The position numbers and the translations under genes were made by a program. Below the pieces are notes generated by a model. That model was not told where the DNA came from. It saw nothing but the letters and a program-made list of their open reading frames with translations, and did no database searches. DNA of 64,000 bases, taken from assembly GCF_002214485.1 (NCBI RefSeq), contig NZ_CP015102.1, forward strand, positions 310,001 to 374,000. Direction: 5' to 3'. Position 1 is the stretch's first letter. The number at the start of each line of letters is the position of its first letter. This document shows, piece by piece, positions 6,301 to 14,420 of the stretch. The stretch is from Thermococcus pacificus (GTDB taxonomy: Archaea; Methanobacteriota_B; Thermococci; Thermococcales; Thermococcaceae).

Positions 6301-7437
6301 TTGGACGTCCACGAGAGGAGCAAGATTGCCGAGTGGGTAGTCAAGCACGCCAAGGTGGTTCTCATAATAGCACTCCTCATAGCGGCACCAGCAACCTACA
6401 CCTTCGTGACCTTCAAGGGAACCCACGACATGAGCCTCTTCCTGCCTGAGGACAGTGAGACCCTCAAGTTCATGACGCTCAGCCAGGAAAAGCTCGGCGC
6501 GTCGCTGATGTCCCCCAACTACGTGATAATCGAGTTCAGCGGCAACGTTAGCGACGACGACCTCAAGCTCATAGACGAAATAACCGCCCACATATCCACG
6601 ATGGAGGGTGTTAAGGCTGTCTATTCACCGACGAGACCCTACGGAGAGCCTGTCAGCAATTTAACCCTCTCGGCAGTGAAGGCCCTCGGCGGCGACAGGT
6701 TCATCTCCTCAAGGGGCGACAAGGTCATGATACAGGTCGAGAGCAGTTACAGGCCAACCGACGAGGAGGCCAAGAACCTCGTGAAGGCACTAAGGGCTTA
6801 CGTTAGGGAAGTTGCCGAGAAGAACCCGAGGATCAAGGCCGGCCTTGTTGGAGGAGGCGCAGCGCTCTCAATGGACCTAACGGACAGGATAAACGACATC
6901 TTCTGGCACAGAATAATCCCAGTGGCCTTAGTGCTCATGTTCCTATCCCTGATACCGACCCTCAAGGGACTGCCGGCAGTGGCCTCCACGATGATCACGA
7001 TATTCCTCGGCGTCATGACGAGCATCTGGGTCTCAACGTGGCTCTTCGAGAGGGTCTTTGGGCAGGAAGTCATGTGGTTCCTGCCGCTGATGGTCTTCGT
7101 CGTGCTCATGGGAGTCGGCATCGACTACAACAGCTTCTACCTCGTCAAGGCAAGGGACGAGTTCGAGCGCAGGAAGCCAGACGAGGCGCTGATAGTTGCC
7201 GCCGGAACGATGGACAAGCTCGTCATAGGCCTCGCAGTGGTTCTAGCGAGCACCTACGGTGCACTGATGCTCAGCAGCACGTGGGGAACGAGGGAGATGG
7301 GCTTCGCATTGGCGGCAGGAATACTCCTGACGGCGACTATGGCGGTCTACTTCATTGGCCCTGCCTTCATGAGCCTCTTTGGCGAGAAAGCCTGGTGGCC
7401 GCTGTTCAAGAACCGCGGGGAAGCAGGGAAGAAGTGA
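3319..7437 (+). CDS. Large MMPL/RND-superfamily membrane exporter
   Basis: This 1372-residue protein has the RND/MMPL plan of two halves. TM1 is at residues 12-30. A very long extracytoplasmic segment (about 31-820) follows, with many N-x-S/T sequons and a string of Ala/Leu/Glu-rich helices. Then comes a membrane cluster containing GLGIDYSTYYVHRF (about 888), a linking helix near 1010, a shorter second external loop (about 1035-1190), and a second membrane cluster with GVGIDYNSFYLV (about 1267). The paired GIDY motifs supply the membrane Asp/Tyr residues of proton-coupled RND transporters. Substrates of the family are lipids, polyketides or other amphiphiles; this one is unknown. The first external loop is several times longer than the second, which is unusual. 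Adjacent PadR control is likely. Confidence 0.9.
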   Translation: MAWNEWIAKHAKLVLLAWIVVIILMSPLAAKLSEVTNYSEEQMVSHNIESIKVQDIISEEFSGAQNENLTYLLITNVSVNDERAREAYYSFKERVEGKYADNVTSYYDALDGLWDMTYDLTLNITKMTANVTGLLYTTAIQTNEGFGQLLAAVYQLGNTTEMVKNGLVGAAQGYLALKQNVTGLYNQTVLLRNALNQTDLAYVALHRNLTSTAGMLKSLNSTLAELNQGLYTLNATYGKTYMGVIAVHRAVLASGAYERGSLTQAEAQAIASQTGTTPEFVYAVFNSVYPVYASAGSGAITDTFLANVTEGIVKAGSPAEQVPLVEAYGRAFYFGVRAFDEKVGSEYALQSMGPEELAQAVSGIATSALQSLPEVIAQSNQTVEVEGFGTIDAKTFSGIVETAISLGPNPSAEAVENATVEVALSFMGNVPNNPLSGLPNAKEVLKELLKTGPTKELERSILLSGMAENLPAEASQFAPVIVDAVLTYDENATRVLSKDPSVLEEATISVLKGITTQMGLSVDENLLKELYESNGSPEVLDKVALEMLKAGTAEQLSRAGVPNAEAIADVIVKTAAEDPQGIISGERLEEATVKVVSALSSGMGGNAEFDVSEIVKGLYEGADPRELAENLFLEGAREQMENANVSVPEEFRGVFLNLTETIVKNYPMGEEEIAKLVKGTVRSFVESYAKNNPYGIEITFDTSKLVDIAFEFKDRPDAMTMDDVKPLAEALFPTVLEKAGTYLSMLKSDDNTTMLITFVPRGRPGPSEDIYKYRAENAKRVKEIALEEFGKYFPEVDGALGGTPVQAHEMTEYGQRDNSVTTRASMIMALVVLFILMGMALLATFLPFTGVATSALTALGIAYLLAKGGIIDVGSWAQMLTITTALGLGIDYSTYYVHRFREYIAEGYEHEKAVAEALKRAKDAVLASAFTDIIAFASFVLAWEFPIFQQMGIIAPLAVVSVLIASLTFIPAITALIGDKSWFWWPRHIKHASALDVHERSKIAEWVVKHAKVVLIIALLIAAPATYTFVTFKGTHDMSLFLPEDSETLKFMTLSQEKLGASLMSPNYVIIEFSGNVSDDDLKLIDEITAHISTMEGVKAVYSPTRPYGEPVSNLTLSAVKALGGDRFISSRGDKVMIQVESSYRPTDEEAKNLVKALRAYVREVAEKNPRIKAGLVGGGAALSMDLTDRINDIFWHRIIPVALVLMFLSLIPTLKGLPAVASTMITIFLGVMTSIWVSTWLFERVFGQEVMWFLPLMVFVVLMGVGIDYNSFYLVKARDEFERRKPDEALIVAAGTMDKLVIGLAVVLASTYGALMLSSTWGTREMGFALAAGILLTATMAVYFIGPAFMSLFGEKAWWPLFKNRGEAGKK

Positions 7438-7525
7438 CTTTCCCTTCCCATTTTTGTTCCAAAACCGTTATATTTTTCCCAACTTTTCTCCAGATGCCAA
7501 AAGAAGAACTCGATCGGTGTTCCAG

Positions 7526-8362
7526 ATGACGGAACGAAAAAAGCTCAAAATCTACATCCCAGGCATCAAATTTCCCTCCGTTTCCGTTACCGGAAATGCC
7601 TGCGCTTTAAACTGCGCCCACTGCGGGAAGCACTACCTTGAGGGCATGAGGAAGCCGGAGCGGGGAGAGCTTTTGAGTTACTGCCTCGACCTTTCCAGAA
7701 AGGGTTACGCCGGCTGTTTGCTGAGCGGCGGGATGGACGGAAGGATGAAGGTCCCGCTGGATTTCTATGCCGACGAAATCAGGGAGATAAAGAGGAGAAC
7801 CAACCTCAAGCTCAACGCCCACGTCGGCTTTATAGACGAGAACGATTTGGAGTGGCTCCGCTGGGTGGATGTGGTTTCCCTTGACTTCGTCGGCGATGAC
7901 GATGTGATAAAGCGGGTCTACAAAATAGACAAGACTGTGAAAGACTACCTTAGAATCCTCGACATCCTCACGGAGAACGGAATAAGAGTTGCGCCGCACA
8001 TAACCATTGGCCTGGACTTTGGAAAAATCCACTGGGAATACAAGACCATAGACCTGCTGATGAACTATCCTATAGACGTTCTCGTTCTAGATGTGCTCAT
8101 CCCGACGAAGGGAACGGAGATGGAGAACGTTCCAAAACCGAGCGTCGAGGAGAGCCTGAAGGTCGTGAAATACGCCAGGGAGCGCTTTGATGGTGAGATA
8201 AGCATAGGCTGCATGCGGCCGCTCGGAAAATGGAGGTTGGACTTCGACAGGGGGGCGGTTTTGGCTGGGGTAGACAGGCTGACAAACCCGCCGAGGAAGA
8301 TAATCGAATGGGCAAAAACAGTAAGGGACGTTGAGGTAATCTACGAGTGCTGCGTTATGTAG
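7526..8362 (+). CDS. Radical SAM enzyme, biotin-synthase-like; candidate lipoyl synthase subunit LipS1
   Basis: The 278-residue protein has the radical SAM motif C-x3-C-x2-C at Cys26, Cys30 and Cys33 (CALNCAHC), followed by the GG motif (SGGMDG) and a TIM-barrel pattern. Further cysteines at about 229 (GCMRP) and at the C-terminal ECCVM could bind an auxiliary cluster, as needed for sulfur insertion. The family resembles biotin synthase. Position downstream of eno, PadR and MMPL matches my recollection of T. kodakarensis TK2109, reported as LipS1 of the archaeal lipoate pathway that works with LipS2. The assignment is inference from order and cysteine pattern; no lipS2 is in this window. Start follows GGTGTT, with a TATA box near 7466. 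Confidence 0.8.
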   Translation: MTERKKLKIYIPGIKFPSVSVTGNACALNCAHCGKHYLEGMRKPERGELLSYCLDLSRKGYAGCLLSGGMDGRMKVPLDFYADEIREIKRRTNLKLNAHVGFIDENDLEWLRWVDVVSLDFVGDDDVIKRVYKIDKTVKDYLRILDILTENGIRVAPHITIGLDFGKIHWEYKTIDLLMNYPIDVLVLDVLIPTKGTEMENVPKPSVEESLKVVKYARERFDGEISIGCMRPLGKWRLDFDRGAVLAGVDRLTNPPRKIIEWAKTVRDVEVIYECCVM

Positions 8363-10093: not shown

Positions 10094-11011
10094 ATGCCCG
10101 AACCAGTCATGGAGGAGCTGGAACTTCTTGTTGAGATTCTGGACCGGCACCCTCTAGAGAGCCTAAGGAGGATAGCCGAGAGCGAGGGGATAGAATACTA
10201 CAGGCTCAAAAGGCTACATGACAAATACTACGGGAAGTACCTCACCGTGAGCGCCTCAGCAAACATCCGGAGGATAGGCCTCCGAAGCTTCGTTGCGTTT
10301 CTAAGCGTTTCCCCCGACAGGCTAATGGAGGTCGCGAGCAGAGTTACCCGGAATCCCTTCATAGGCTATGCAAATCCAGCCTTCGGCTTTAAGAACGGAC
10401 TCTCCCTTACAATCTATGTCCCAGACAAACAGAAGAAGCTCGTGGGCAAGATGCTCTCAAAATATTCGGACGACTATGAGTACTACGAAGTCAGGGCATA
10501 CCCCTATAGTGGCGACGAGGACTTCGGTGACTGGTATTTAAGCTACGACTACGCGGTTCTCCTCGACATTCTGAAATGGGACGCAAGGACACCTATAACC
10601 GAGATATCGCGGCGGCTGGGAAAAAGCAGACCAACCGTGAGGTACATGATAAAGCGCCTGCAGGAGGAGGGCATCATTGTGAAGTTCGCCCCCTTAGTGG
10701 ACATGAACATCCACAACAGGGGCGTCATAGGATTAACGAAGCACCTGGACGACGAGGTTCTAGAGAGGTTCAAGGAGTACGAGATAACGGTCGGTGTCCT
10801 CCCGGGGTACGGCTACATTCTCGAGTGGTTCTTCTCGTCGAAGGAAGACCTCGGGAGCAAGGTTCTGGAGTTCAGCAACTACGTGGAGAAGCTTCTCATA
10901 GAGTACTTCGACCCGGTTTTCAAGGAGATGAACGACAGGAATTTAAAGGACAGGTACCAGAGGATGGTTAAAGAGGATGGAAACGGCTACCGCTCCATTC
11001 TGGAGTTCTAA
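10094..11011 (+). CDS. Two-domain helix-turn-helix transcriptional regulator
   Basis: This 305-residue protein has an N-terminal helical segment that looks like a degenerate HTH (LESLRRIAESEGIEYYRLKRL, about residues 18-40), an Lrp-like alpha/beta region, and a second clear HTH at about 163-200 (TPITEISRRLGKSRPTVRYM). A further alpha/beta region follows. The arrangement resembles archaeal fused Lrp/AsnC-like regulators. It is divergent from the adenosine-kinase gene, with a shared short intergenic region containing AT-rich TATA candidates. The 3' end overlaps the convergent SPASM-like gene by four bases. Ligand and targets are unknown. Confidence 0.75.
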   Translation: MPEPVMEELELLVEILDRHPLESLRRIAESEGIEYYRLKRLHDKYYGKYLTVSASANIRRIGLRSFVAFLSVSPDRLMEVASRVTRNPFIGYANPAFGFKNGLSLTIYVPDKQKKLVGKMLSKYSDDYEYYEVRAYPYSGDEDFGDWYLSYDYAVLLDILKWDARTPITEISRRLGKSRPTVRYMIKRLQEEGIIVKFAPLVDMNIHNRGVIGLTKHLDDEVLERFKEYEITVGVLPGYGYILEWFFSSKEDLGSKVLEFSNYVEKLLIEYFDPVFKEMNDRNLKDRYQRMVKEDGNGYRSILEF

Positions 11012-11940
11012 AGGAATACCGGGCAGTATTCGAGGCCGTCGATTTCCCCAGTCGCCTGGTATTCAAGGGCCCTGCAGTCGTGGCATATATACCTGAAGGG
11101 GCAGTTGCTGCAAGTTCCTATCCTATCCTTCGTCATCCTCCAGAACTCCTTGAGGCGCTTCTTCCTGAGGATTCCCTTTATACTGGTCTCCTTTGCGTCG
11201 GCAACGATGTTGTTGCGGAGAAGCGGACATGGCAGGGCGTAGCCGTCGGCAGTTATCGCGAGCGTCCCAGCAAGGCAGTCGTGGTACCGCTCGGTAGTCG
11301 GGTTGAGGATGCGCCTCATCTCTATTACATTGAAGTCCAACTTTCTGGCCGAGCCGGGGTAGAGGACGTCGAGGTATATCTCCCCTGGAAAGGTGGTCTT
11401 GAGACCCCTTAGCCCATCCAGATCCGAACCCTTTACCATCACCAGAGCCCCGTGGAGCCAGTCCCGAGCCTCAAGCCTCTGGACGTTCTCTGGAGAGTAC
11501 TCAAGCTCCGCTATGAAGCGAACTCCATCAATTGGCCGTATTTCATCGACGTCATCGAGGAGAACCACCGCGTAGACCTCAGGAACCTCTATCTCCGCGG
11601 CGTAGGCAGCTATGGACAAGAGGTAATCATGGCTGTCGTAGTTGGTGAGCCAGAGCTCCCTTCCGCCCGCAAGCTTGAACTCCTTTATCAGCTCCCTCAC
11701 GCGCTCGACGCTCAGGGGCTCCCTTCGGAGTATGAAGGAGTTGTTGCCGATGCATCCGATGGAACGAGGGATTCCAGTAACTTCGGAGAACCTGCCCTTC
11801 CCAGAGCCGAGCTGGAGGATGAGCCTCTCAAGCCTGCCGCTATGGGGCCTGTCGCTCCAGGGAGGCTTGGCGACCGAGACCACGTTTGGAGAGAGGGCAA
11901 TGCCAAACGCCTGAGCGGTATCATAAGCCACCTTCTCCAT
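11008..11940 (-). CDS. SPASM-domain protein resembling a radical SAM enzyme but lacking the CX3CX2C motif
   Basis: The 310-residue protein reads like a radical SAM/SPASM maturase that has lost its catalytic cluster. In the first-strand region where CX3CX2C should lie, only Cys63 remains (SIGCIGNNSF). The following helix, AGGRELWLTN (about 91-100) and barrel-like strands persist. The C-terminal part keeps a full SPASM-like set: Cys222, Cys238, then Cys277, Cys280, Cys286, Cys289 and Cys306. It could bind an auxiliary Fe-S cluster without reductive cleavage of SAM. The ATG at 11940 follows GGTGGTG, and a strong GTATATATAC box is at 11970-11979. Function unknown; a redox or scaffold partner is possible. 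Confidence 0.65.
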   Translation of the reverse strand: MEKVAYDTAQAFGIALSPNVVSVAKPPWSDRPHSGRLERLILQLGSGKGRFSEVTGIPRSIGCIGNNSFILRREPLSVERVRELIKEFKLAGGRELWLTNYDSHDYLLSIAAYAAEIEVPEVYAVVLLDDVDEIRPIDGVRFIAELEYSPENVQRLEARDWLHGALVMVKGSDLDGLRGLKTTFPGEIYLDVLYPGSARKLDFNVIEMRRILNPTTERYHDCLAGTLAITADGYALPCPLLRNNIVADAKETSIKGILRKKRLKEFWRMTKDRIGTCSNCPFRYICHDCRALEYQATGEIDGLEYCPVFL

Positions 11941-11967: not shown

Positions 11968-11983
11968 GAAACGTATATATACT
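11968..11983 (-). promoter_or_regulatory. TATA box for the SPASM-like gene
   Basis: The minus strand reads AAAAGTATATATACGT, a near-ideal purine-rich BRE plus TATA element about 30 bp before the ribosome site of the SPASM-like gene. Confidence 0.6.
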
Positions 11984-12041
11984 TTTTCTATTCCGATTTT
12001 GCATACCACTTTAGAAAGTTTGCAAAAAATGAAAAATCCCC

Positions 12042-12470
12042 TCATCCCTCAGGCACAACCCTGTCCCCCTCGATCCAGAAGGTTCCCTCATCAGTTACCT
12101 CCTTCTTCCAGATCGGGACGCGCTTCTTCACTTCATCGATGGCCCATGAACAGGCCTCAAAGGCCTCTCTCCTGTGCTTTCCGCTGGCTATGATCAGTAT
12201 CGTGTCCTGGCCAACCCTGAGCTCCCCGTAACGGTGCCAGATGAGCATGTCCAGGATCGGGAACTTCTCAAGGGCCTCCTTTCGTATGCGCTCCATCTCA
12301 GCCTCGGCCATCTCAGGGTAGGCCTCGTAGATGAGCTTCTCAACCCGTCTCCCGTGGTTCTCGTTCCTCACCTTTCCGAGGAAGAAGACGTAAGCCCCAG
12401 CTTCCGGAACCAGGAGGTGGCCCAGGGCTTCATTGAGGTCGAAGGGTTCCTTCGTGAGCCTGACTTTCAT
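12042..12470 (-). CDS. moaE: Molybdopterin synthase catalytic subunit MoaE
   Basis: MoaE transfers sulfur from thiocarboxylated MoaD to precursor Z, making the dithiolene of molybdopterin (tungstopterin in Thermococcales). The 142-residue product has family length and signatures: GAYVFFLGKVRNENHGR near residues 29-45, LIYEAYPEMAEAEMERI, and the catalytic C-terminal KHRREAFEACSWAIDEVK plus KRVPIWKKE with the active lysines. Start is the ATG at 12470, before which lies GGGGATCGCC. A moaD-like gene lies about 1.6 kb away on the same strand with a ThiF/MoeB-like activator, so the pieces of a pterin or tRNA sulfur-transfer pathway are clustered but not contiguous. Confidence 0.94.
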   Translation of the reverse strand: MKVRLTKEPFDLNEALGHLLVPEAGAYVFFLGKVRNENHGRRVEKLIYEAYPEMAEAEMERIRKEALEKFPILDMLIWHRYGELRVGQDTILIIASGKHRREAFEACSWAIDEVKKRVPIWKKEVTDEGTFWIEGDRVVPEG

Positions 12471-12562
12471 GGCGATCCCCGAGAAAACTACGCGCCGGGA
12501 GTTAAAAATTGAGCGGTGGAAAGGTTTAAGTGATTCGGGGAGCATGCTATCCAGGTGAAAGG

Positions 12563-13405
12563 ATGAAAAGGTACGCGGTACTGTTCATCGCGATTCTTCT
12601 CATTGGCCTCGTGGCAGGCTGTCTAGGCAGAAACAGCGGCGAAACGACGCCGAGCGGCACCACGAGCAGTGCAACTCAGAGTATAACGAAAAAGGTAGAA
12701 ACGACCACCACGACCCAGACCCCAAAGGGGCCGGACCTCGATGAGCTGCTGAAGACTGTGAACTCGATAAGACAGTTCACGTACACCAGCAACGCCACGC
12801 TGAGGATGCTCGTGACGATAGAGCAGGGCAACACCTCCGAGACGGACAACGTGACCCTCAACGTCCTCGAGAACGGATACATGGACTACGAATCCTGGAG
12901 CGCGTGGATAAACTCCACGACGGTGAGCCTGCCGGACGGGGCTAAAACCAACATGTCCAGGATAGTGGTGGACAACATCACATACATCCAGAGCATAGTG
13001 GGCTGGGTGAAGGCTGAGGATACAGGGGCGAGCGAGATAGTCTGGAGGTACAGCATCGTCGGCCTGGCGAAGGAGTACCTGGGGGAGAAGCCGAGCTCGG
13101 TCGAGAACAACGGGACATTGAAGCTCGTCTACCACATCCCCGACTACAGGCTGAGGCCCTTCGCAACGGTCTACTTCGCCACCTCCTCGGAGACGGTGGT
13201 GAACGTTGAGGACGGCAGGCTGGAGCTCTACTTCAGGGACGGCCAGCTCGTCGGCGGGAGGCTGAGCTTCAGTGTCAGCTCAGAGACCGACGTAAATGAT
13301 CCGACTCTGGGCGAGATGAAGATCACTCAGAACGGAACCTGGGACGAGACCTTCAAGATAACCTCGATAAACGAAAAGAAGGCCGTGAAGGCCCCGTCTA
13401 CCTGA
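12563..13405 (+). CDS. Membrane-anchored lipoprotein of unknown function
   Basis: The 280-residue product begins with a lipoprotein-type signal (MKRYAVLFIAILLIGLVAGC), whose lipobox ends at Cys20. A Ser/Thr-rich linker (about 23-60) follows, then a beta-rich globular domain with many N-x-S/T sequons. The layout fits a surface lipoprotein anchored to the outer face of the membrane; it resembles LolA/LppX-like lipid-binding folds only in a general way. ATG at 12563 follows GGTGAAAGG. The 3' end overlaps the convergent ThiF-like gene by 8 bp. No specific family recognised. Confidence 0.75.
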   Translation: MKRYAVLFIAILLIGLVAGCLGRNSGETTPSGTTSSATQSITKKVETTTTTQTPKGPDLDELLKTVNSIRQFTYTSNATLRMLVTIEQGNTSETDNVTLNVLENGYMDYESWSAWINSTTVSLPDGAKTNMSRIVVDNITYIQSIVGWVKAEDTGASEIVWRYSIVGLAKEYLGEKPSSVENNGTLKLVYHIPDYRLRPFATVYFATSSETVVNVEDGRLELYFRDGQLVGGRLSFSVSSETDVNDPTLGEMKITQNGTWDETFKITSINEKKAVKAPST

Positions 13406-14096
13406 GATCAACAACGTCGAAGGTGTTGAATGCAAGGTCAACTAGGAGCAGCTTGTTGAGAAGGGGCTCGCCTATGCCGGTGAGGAGCTTTATGACCTCC
13501 ATTGTCTGAATCGAGCCTATAACTCCCGCCGTCGCCCCCAGAATCGGGAATTTTCCGCTCTTTTCTTTTATATTCGGGAAGATTTCCCTGAGGCTCTTCG
13601 TTATTCCCGGCACTACCGTCGTCACTTGGCCAAAGGTTCCCTCGACGGCCCCGTGAACGAGGGGAACGCGCTTCCTCTGGGAGTAATCGTCGAGCAGAAA
13701 CCTCGTCTCGAAGTTGTCGAGGCAGTCTACTATGATATCCACGCCCGCGAGGACGTCATCGATGTTCGACTCGTCAAGGCGCCCCACGAAGGTCTCTATC
13801 CTTACCTCGGAGTTGAAGCGCTCCAGCTTCCACTTAGCGGAGAGGGGCTTGGGGTTCTTTTCCAGATCCTCCTCCCAGTGGAGTATCTGCCTGTTGAGGT
13901 TGCTGAGCTCCGGTGTTTGCTCGTCTATGAGGAGTATGGTACCTATCCCAGCCGCGGCCAAGTAGTAGGCAACCGGACTTCCGAGGCCGCCGACTCCAAC
14001 GACTGCCACCTTCGAGTTCTTCAGCTTCTCCTGCCCTTCTTTCCCGAGTATCATGATCTGCCTGTCGTAGCGCTCAAGCTCCTTCTCGCTCAGCAT
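13398..14096 (-). CDS. ThiF/MoeB/HesA-family adenylyltransferase lacking the zinc cysteines
   Basis: This E1-like enzyme should adenylate the C-terminal glycine of a ubiquitin-like protein such as the MoaD encoded directly upstream. Visible features are the N-terminal RYDRQIMILGKEGQ, the nucleotide-binding VAVVGVGGLGSPVAYYLAAAG (about 28-48), LSNLNRQILH, the Mg/ATP residues around VDCLDNFETR and VPLVHGAVEG. Canonical MoeB and UbaA carry two CxxC zinc pairs; here the only cysteine seen is in VDCLDN, so the zinc site is absent. The 232-residue length is slightly short for the family. The ATG lies one base after the MoaD stop, so the two genes are probably translated together. Confidence 0.88.
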   Translation of the reverse strand: MLSEKELERYDRQIMILGKEGQEKLKNSKVAVVGVGGLGSPVAYYLAAAGIGTILLIDEQTPELSNLNRQILHWEEDLEKNPKPLSAKWKLERFNSEVRIETFVGRLDESNIDDVLAGVDIIVDCLDNFETRFLLDDYSQRKRVPLVHGAVEGTFGQVTTVVPGITKSLREIFPNIKEKSGKFPILGATAGVIGSIQTMEVIKLLTGIGEPLLNKLLLVDLAFNTFDVVDLR

Positions 14097-14097
14097 T

Positions 14098-14364
14098 TCA
14101 ACCACCACTCACCGGCGGGAAGAGGGCGACGACATCACCGTCGTGGAGAACCTCATCGAAGCGGACGTAGCGACCGTTTCTGGAGACGTTGACGTCGGCT
14201 AAATCATCGTCCTCAGCAAAGACCTCGTTCCTGAGAACCGGATGCTTCTCCCGCAAAATCTCTATCAGCTCGCCGACTGTTATACCATCCGGGACTTCCA
14301 GCTCCTCCTCGCCCTTCCCCACGAGGGAGCGGTACCTTGCAAAATAGCGAACGGTAACCTTCAT
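14098..14364 (-). CDS. moaD: MoaD/SAMP-like ubiquitin-fold sulfur carrier
   Basis: The 88-residue protein has the beta-grasp pattern of MoaD and archaeal small modifier proteins: MKVTVRYFARYRSLVGK at the N-terminus, VPDGITVGELIEIL in the middle and the essential di-glycine tail PPVSGG. The C-terminal glycine is activated by an E1-like enzyme and thiocarboxylated for MoaE, or conjugated to proteins as in SAMPs. GGTGGTGGGA precedes the ATG at 14364. The adjacent ThiF-like gene follows after one base, which supports them as partners. Sequence alone cannot separate a cofactor role from protein modification. Confidence 0.9.
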   Translation of the reverse strand: MKVTVRYFARYRSLVGKGEEELEVPDGITVGELIEILREKHPVLRNEVFAEDDDLADVNVSRNGRYVRFDEVLHDGDVVALFPPVSGG

Positions 14365-14420
14365 TCCCACCACCGAGAAAAGTTGGATGGAGGGTTAAAA
14401 AGGGTTGCTGGACGGCTTTG

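Follow-up and report, generated by a model that had tools for sequence, protein, structure and literature searches.

A 310-residue protein encoded on the minus strand of a 64,000-nucleotide stretch of Thermococcus pacificus DNA (hereafter the window; gene at 11008-11940, with its ATG at 11940 and its stop codon ending at 11008) is a real variant of the radical SAM/SPASM proteins with an unexpected regulon. It carries a SPASM domain and no radical SAM cluster motif, has orthologues across the Thermococcaceae, and is preceded by a promoter element also found at genes for secreted surface proteins. Its translation holds eight cysteines (63, 222, 238, 277, 280, 286, 289 and 306), as an earlier note on this DNA had reported in listing seven C-terminal SPASM cysteines and a lone N-terminal Cys63. 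The seven define a domain spanning residues 222-306 (11023-11277, minus strand), and the motif is accompanied by matches to Pfam PF13186 (SPASM; 31.1 bits against a cut-off of 21.5) and TIGR04085 (33.6 bits against a cut-off of 27), both confined to the C-terminal third of the protein. Homology of this part to Thermococcales radical SAM/SPASM proteins was confirmed by hhalign alignment, with E values of about 1e-11 to 1e-13. The cysteines are spaced C-X10-G-X4-C ... C-X2-C-X5-C-X2-C ... C. The final short gap, usually X3 in this motif, is X2 here and likewise in several Thermococcales radical SAM/SPASM enzymes. The domain would offer room for two auxiliary [4Fe-4S] clusters, which is its putative cluster content. 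Residues 1-221 hold one cysteine and neither CX3CX2C nor a variant three-cysteine motif, and none of the radical SAM profiles in Pfam was matched, PF04055 being absent up to an E value of 1. The complete 1.79-Mb source genome contains some 22 radical SAM loci and no full-length paralogue of the protein.

A search of 94 Thermococcaceae genomes recovered orthologues from every genome except G064 and G091 (assemblies 75 and 80 percent complete), with only partial orthologues in G035 and G056; the protein is present in essentially all Thermococcaceae genomes examined. A 60-sequence profile found SPASM-domain matches and no orthologue in other families of the phylum, and one pattern scan of genome contigs for homologues outside the phylum returned Thermococcaceae only. 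The intact reading frame and family-wide conservation rule out a pseudogene, in line with the earlier note, which had argued from frame and promoter that the gene is not decaying. In an alignment of 73 orthologues, whose identity to the window protein ranges from about 42 to 89 percent, Cys289 is kept in 72 sequences and the other six SPASM cysteines in every one.

The alignment further shows that the loss of the cluster motif is clade-wide, CX3CX2C occurring in 0 of the 73 orthologues. The note had described the motif as reduced to Cys63; it is indeed gone, but Cys63 is not what remains of it. The residue is kept in 73 of 73 orthologues within a Thermococcaceae-specific motif, GIPRSxGCxGNN, preceded by the conserved residues KPPW...H.G..ERLIL..G.G.G.FSE, and this invariance argues for a clade-wide replacement rather than erosion, so that Cys63 is not a chance remnant of a cluster ligand. 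The motif occupies a long loop that follows strand beta-1, the place where radical SAM enzymes hold their cluster motif. This rebuilt loop (residues 44-77, GxGxGxFSE..GIPRSxGCxGNN; 11710-11811, minus strand; Cys63 codon 11752-11754), delimited from alignments and AlphaFold strand positions, replaces CX3CX2C. A weak alternative hhalign alignment, with a probability of 6 percent, places Cys63 on the third cysteine of CX3CX2C and was not counted as evidence.

Structure prediction points to a partial TIM barrel with a radical SAM/SPASM fold. The AlphaFold model of the window protein (pLDDT 80.9, pTM 0.84) has six beta/alpha units followed by the SPASM domain, with strand 1 at residues 39-43 directly before the Cys63 loop. 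Foldseek comparison of this model with the PDB gave nothing below 1e-3, the best TM-scores among the matches listed being to viperins, while a viral library gave seven matches below 1e-3 (E values to 1e-5), almost all of them carrying Fe-S, SPASM or radical SAM annotations. The model of the Pyrococcus orthologue was better (mean pLDDT 84.3) and matched SuiB best in the PDB (2e-6), with EpeE, anSME and SkfB within 2e-6 to 9e-4 and TigE at 2e-3. An unrelated fold, which the note had named as grounds for abandoning its reading, is ruled out by this orthologue model, although the window-protein model alone had no PDB match below 1e-3; the lack of any further cysteine in the N-terminal half rules out the other such ground, a complete cluster site at a different place there. 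The N-terminal half resembles radical SAM barrels in predicted fold only, with no sequence homology by hhalign. The barrel strands show stronger conservation at the C-terminal than at the N-terminal end (P 0.013, strands 2-6), and conserved positions at the barrel mouth include Y101, D102, D130, Y148, P195 and S197. Since the mouth is strongly conserved and not eroded, the protein would seem to have a functional pocket of its own rather than being a bare scaffold.

Upstream of the gene on the minus strand is its conserved neighbour moaE (12042-12545; PF02391, E 5.7e-38), encoding the large subunit of molybdopterin synthase, followed at greater distance by genes for a ThiF/MoeB/E1-like adenylyltransferase (13398-14108, minus strand; PF00899) and a MoaD/ThiS-type ubiquitin-like sulfur carrier (14098-14373, minus strand; PF02597), a locus of the same type as TK2117 and TK2118 (UblB) of T. 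kodakarensis, respectively, an equivalence that is presumed. Downstream and convergent is HTH2 (10094-11011, plus strand), a 305-residue Lrp-like winged-HTH protein with Pfam HTH_24 and HTH_AsnC-type matches and an LrpA-like PDB match. The moaE gene lies directly upstream of the SPASM gene on the same strand in Thermococcus (g1), Pyrococcus (g3), g5 and the moaE-linked copies of g4, the two genus names being assigned from gene content and named loci, and this adjacency persists where other neighbours differ; moaE is not adjacent in g2, g6 and the second copies of g4. MoaD, ThiF, MoaE and SPASM genes are contiguous in g4, and in Pyrococcus HTH2 is located elsewhere in the genome. The moaE-linked and HTH2-linked SPASM copies of g4 form two separate clades with full support. 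The g4 genomes with HTH2 are those with the second, HTH2-linked copy, while seven g4 genomes have an intact SPASM gene and no HTH2. Paralogue turnover is evident in g4: in G077 the moaE-linked copy (C1:1247845-1248608, L082) is a pseudogene and the HTH2-linked copy intact, and in G078 breakage affects both the HTH2-linked copy and the adjacent HTH2 (C1:1775153-1776241).

No radical SAM gene is a conserved neighbour. The window does contain an intact radical SAM gene with the motif CALNCAHC (7379-8362, plus strand), which is near the SPASM gene in only some Thermococcus loci. A lipoprotein gene (12530-13405, plus strand) separates ThiF from MoaE in most Thermococcus and is absent from that place in g4; the promoter element described below has no copy at this gene. 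Elsewhere, G000 has a radical SAM/SPASM gene spread over two overlapping frames, possibly by a frameshift (C1:837562-838472; L121, L128, L129). There is neither a peptide-substrate reading frame beside the SPASM gene nor a conserved small neighbour gene, and about 100 nt, most of it promoter, separate moaE from the SPASM gene, which speaks against a RiPP cassette. A Pfam scan of the ten nearest genes of the window revealed no ATP-grasp gene.

The strong promoter reported in the earlier note is borne out, with a TATA box at 11973-11982 and a conserved BRE and palindrome upstream of it. Reading towards the start codon, the element (11974-12030, minus strand) comprises a palindromic operator, TTTTgcanACTaytnnnArTrGTntgcAAAA, then tCnGnATAGAAAAAG, then the TATA box; it is conserved across genera over a length of 58 bp. 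A sequence-only model of the element, R1, matches the window site at E 2.2e-16 and reaches 8e-18 at SPASM sites within the Thermococcaceae, and the best match in 21 genomes outside the family was 0.0064. Across 72 genomes searched with R1, the element precedes the SPASM gene in 67 of the 67 with HTH2 and in none of the five without an intact HTH2 (four lacking it, plus G078, where HTH2 is broken and a SPASM gene intact). This co-occurrence across genomes strongly supports action of HTH2 on the element, and makes HTH2 its probable regulator. In the source genome the SPASM site is the sole convincing element. In G073, which has no HTH2, one element lies before a gene for a secreted 393-aa protein (C1:877311-877360, L228), and is either a relic or the site of another regulator.

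Beyond the SPASM gene, the element is found at VARTIG hypervariable Ig-protein genes, at surface lipoprotein genes and at genes for DUF4855-like proteins (loci L194-L253 and L256-L285). Sixty non-SPASM sites were fetched and the first downstream gene classified, yielding 26 large secreted proteins, 22 lipoproteins of approximately 270 aa, four DUF4855-like proteins and a few singletons. By a crude rule, and against a background that includes uncurated reading frames, 52 of these 60 first genes encode a hydrophobic N-terminus compared with 87 of 472 neighbours. Three loci (L208, L241 and L246) have the element (E 7.5e-13 to 3e-8) before reading frames of 71-75 aa without a signal peptide, the one at L208 containing HYPPW. 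In the large secreted proteins the N-terminus is conserved and the C-terminus variable; small membrane-type proteins come next in most cases, and a few of the large proteins end in a DNNxxxGG-type tail. VARTIG (arCOG07710; PMC8416519) has been described with these features, and it is on them, rather than by an arCOG search, that we assign the proteins to VARTIG. A protein search independent of the element search found 30 VARTIG genes, many of them overlapping with genes behind the sixty sites, and 24 of the 30 have the element, scoring at least 28 where the remaining window scores no higher than -16 (1,595 background windows). VARTIG was found in 44 of the 72 genomes, and no VARTIG gene was detected in the source genome. 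The g4 genomes devoid of HTH2 and of detected VARTIG still encode an unbroken SPASM protein in which no cysteine is missing. Its retention there and in the source genome means that VARTIG cannot be its only substrate, and survival of the gene without both partners means that serving HTH2 and VARTIG is not its whole function. We found no published link between the SPASM protein, the element and VARTIG or surface-lipoprotein genes, and the main text of the VARTIG paper (PMC8416519) contains no promoter, SPASM, radical SAM or HTH.

Our tentative first choice among four explanations is that the protein is a SAM-independent, substrate-binding or substrate-modifying Fe-S protein. A radical SAM/SPASM peptide maturase would have given rise to a cytoplasmic protein that exchanged the SAM-cluster beta-1 loop for a fixed one bearing a single invariant thiol (Cys63) and retained the barrel-mouth pocket and two-cluster SPASM domain of its ancestor. 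It would most likely bind a peptide or protein, a role towards which both its relatives by fold and the secreted proteins co-regulated with it point, and might modify it by thiol or redox chemistry; HTH2, via the palindromic operator, would control its production alongside that of secreted surface proteins. We infer direct binding of HTH2 to the element, as we do the Fe-S content, substrate type and chemistry of the protein. Counting against this explanation are the retention of the protein where VARTIG is missing, with or without HTH2, the lack of an adjacent substrate reading frame, an N-terminal half without hhalign homology, a window-protein model without a significant PDB match, and the link to moaE, which points elsewhere. 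That link is the basis of the second-ranked explanation, in our estimate an unlikely one, in which the protein is a tungsten/molybdopterin cofactor accessory and Fe-S partner of MoaD, ThiF and MoaE that could, for example, supply electrons for cofactor assembly or carry sulfur on an open auxiliary cluster or a Cys63 persulfide. The persistence of moaE directly upstream amid changed neighbours, the contiguous MoaD-ThiF-MoaE-SPASM genes of g4, the survival of the moaE-linked copy without HTH2 and the role of TK2118 in W-cofactor synthesis (PMC11323500) all fit such a partner. However, the second g4 copies and the genes of g2 and g6 have no moaE next to them, MoaE occurs without a SPASM orthologue in other families of the phylum, and the gene has a promoter to itself, with an element that is found again before surface-protein genes and before no recognised cofactor gene among the sites examined.

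Somewhat less probable again is a redox or iron sensor, ranked third, whose SPASM clusters would sense iron or redox state and which would modulate HTH2 and, through it, the SPASM gene and the surface proteins. The SPASM gene is a target in every genome with HTH2, the two form a unit at the second g4 place and are broken together in G078, and the operator is missing from the SPASM promoter wherever HTH2 is absent or broken; but seven g4 genomes retain an intact SPASM gene without HTH2, which makes a pure sensor less likely, and the conserved pocket exceeds a sensor's needs. The earlier note had proposed a non-catalytic Fe-S scaffold, electron carrier or regulator serving another radical SAM maturase. 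Retention of the SPASM domain after loss of the SAM cluster agrees with such a role, and the radical SAM loci of the source genome are possible partners; yet none is consistently linked to the gene, that at 7379-8362 being near only some Thermococcus loci, and the barrel mouth is conserved as a pocket. We consider this proposal improbable and rank it last of the four. Returning to the substrate-binding reading, a more specific form of it is a Thermococcaceae-specific circuit with the SPASM protein as chromosomal core, in which the Lrp-like regulator would switch on the SPASM, VARTIG and lipoprotein genes and the SPASM protein would use SAM-independent chemistry at Cys63 to process these surface proteins ahead of their export; as a whole, this remains a doubtful proposition.

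A whole archaeal family appears to have given up the radical cluster and kept both the radical SAM fold and the auxiliary-cluster domain, and the Cys63 loop carries a new motif that is invariant and active-site-like. The protein is a natural test case for the capabilities of a SPASM domain in the absence of SAM chemistry. The shared operator is the first lead found on the control of VARTIG self/non-self or conflict modules, and the same promoter switch on the SPASM and hypervariable surface-protein genes gives a testable lead to the role of both. A candidate regulator (HTH2) and a core protein (SPASM) can be named, both of them deletable in the genetically tractable Thermococcus kodakarensis.

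Several known systems share parts of this arrangement. VARTIG modules (arCOG07710; PMC8416519) have the promoter element in common with the SPASM gene, whose product is not an Ig protein and is encoded outside VARTIG islands. The MoaD-ThiF gene pair of the window presumably corresponds to T. kodakarensis TK2117-TK2118 (ThiF-UblB), a locus whose genes matter for W-cofactor enzymes, with a part in W-cofactor synthesis for the MoaD-type protein TK2118 (PMC11323500); the main text of that study names neither the SPASM protein nor TK2115 and TK2116. The pseudo-rSAM or SPASM-only NCBIfam families TIGR04304 (GeoRSP), TIGR04150 and TIGR04321 have the SPASM domain in common with the protein and match it only weakly (10.7-14.1 bits against cut-offs of 250-300). 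The top NCBIfam match is TIGR04193, the grasp-with-SPASM family (E 3.6e-17, 62.8 bits), in the SPASM region only. Grasp-with-SPASM maturases are likewise not known to carry the radical SAM cluster. The score is far under the TIGR04193 cut-off of 175, there is no match outside residues 203-298, and an ATP-grasp gene was not seen in the annotated SPASM neighbourhood. Closest in overall predicted fold are the radical SAM/SPASM maturases SuiB, EpeE, anSME, SkfB and TigE, with the same seven-cysteine SPASM domain, from which the protein differs in lacking CX3CX2C and an adjacent peptide gene and in having the conserved one-cysteine loop. Its barrel is also compact, with 159 residues from Cys63 to the first SPASM cysteine, whereas 221-253 residues separate the first cluster cysteine from the first SPASM cysteine in 26 Thermococcales radical SAM/SPASM proteins.
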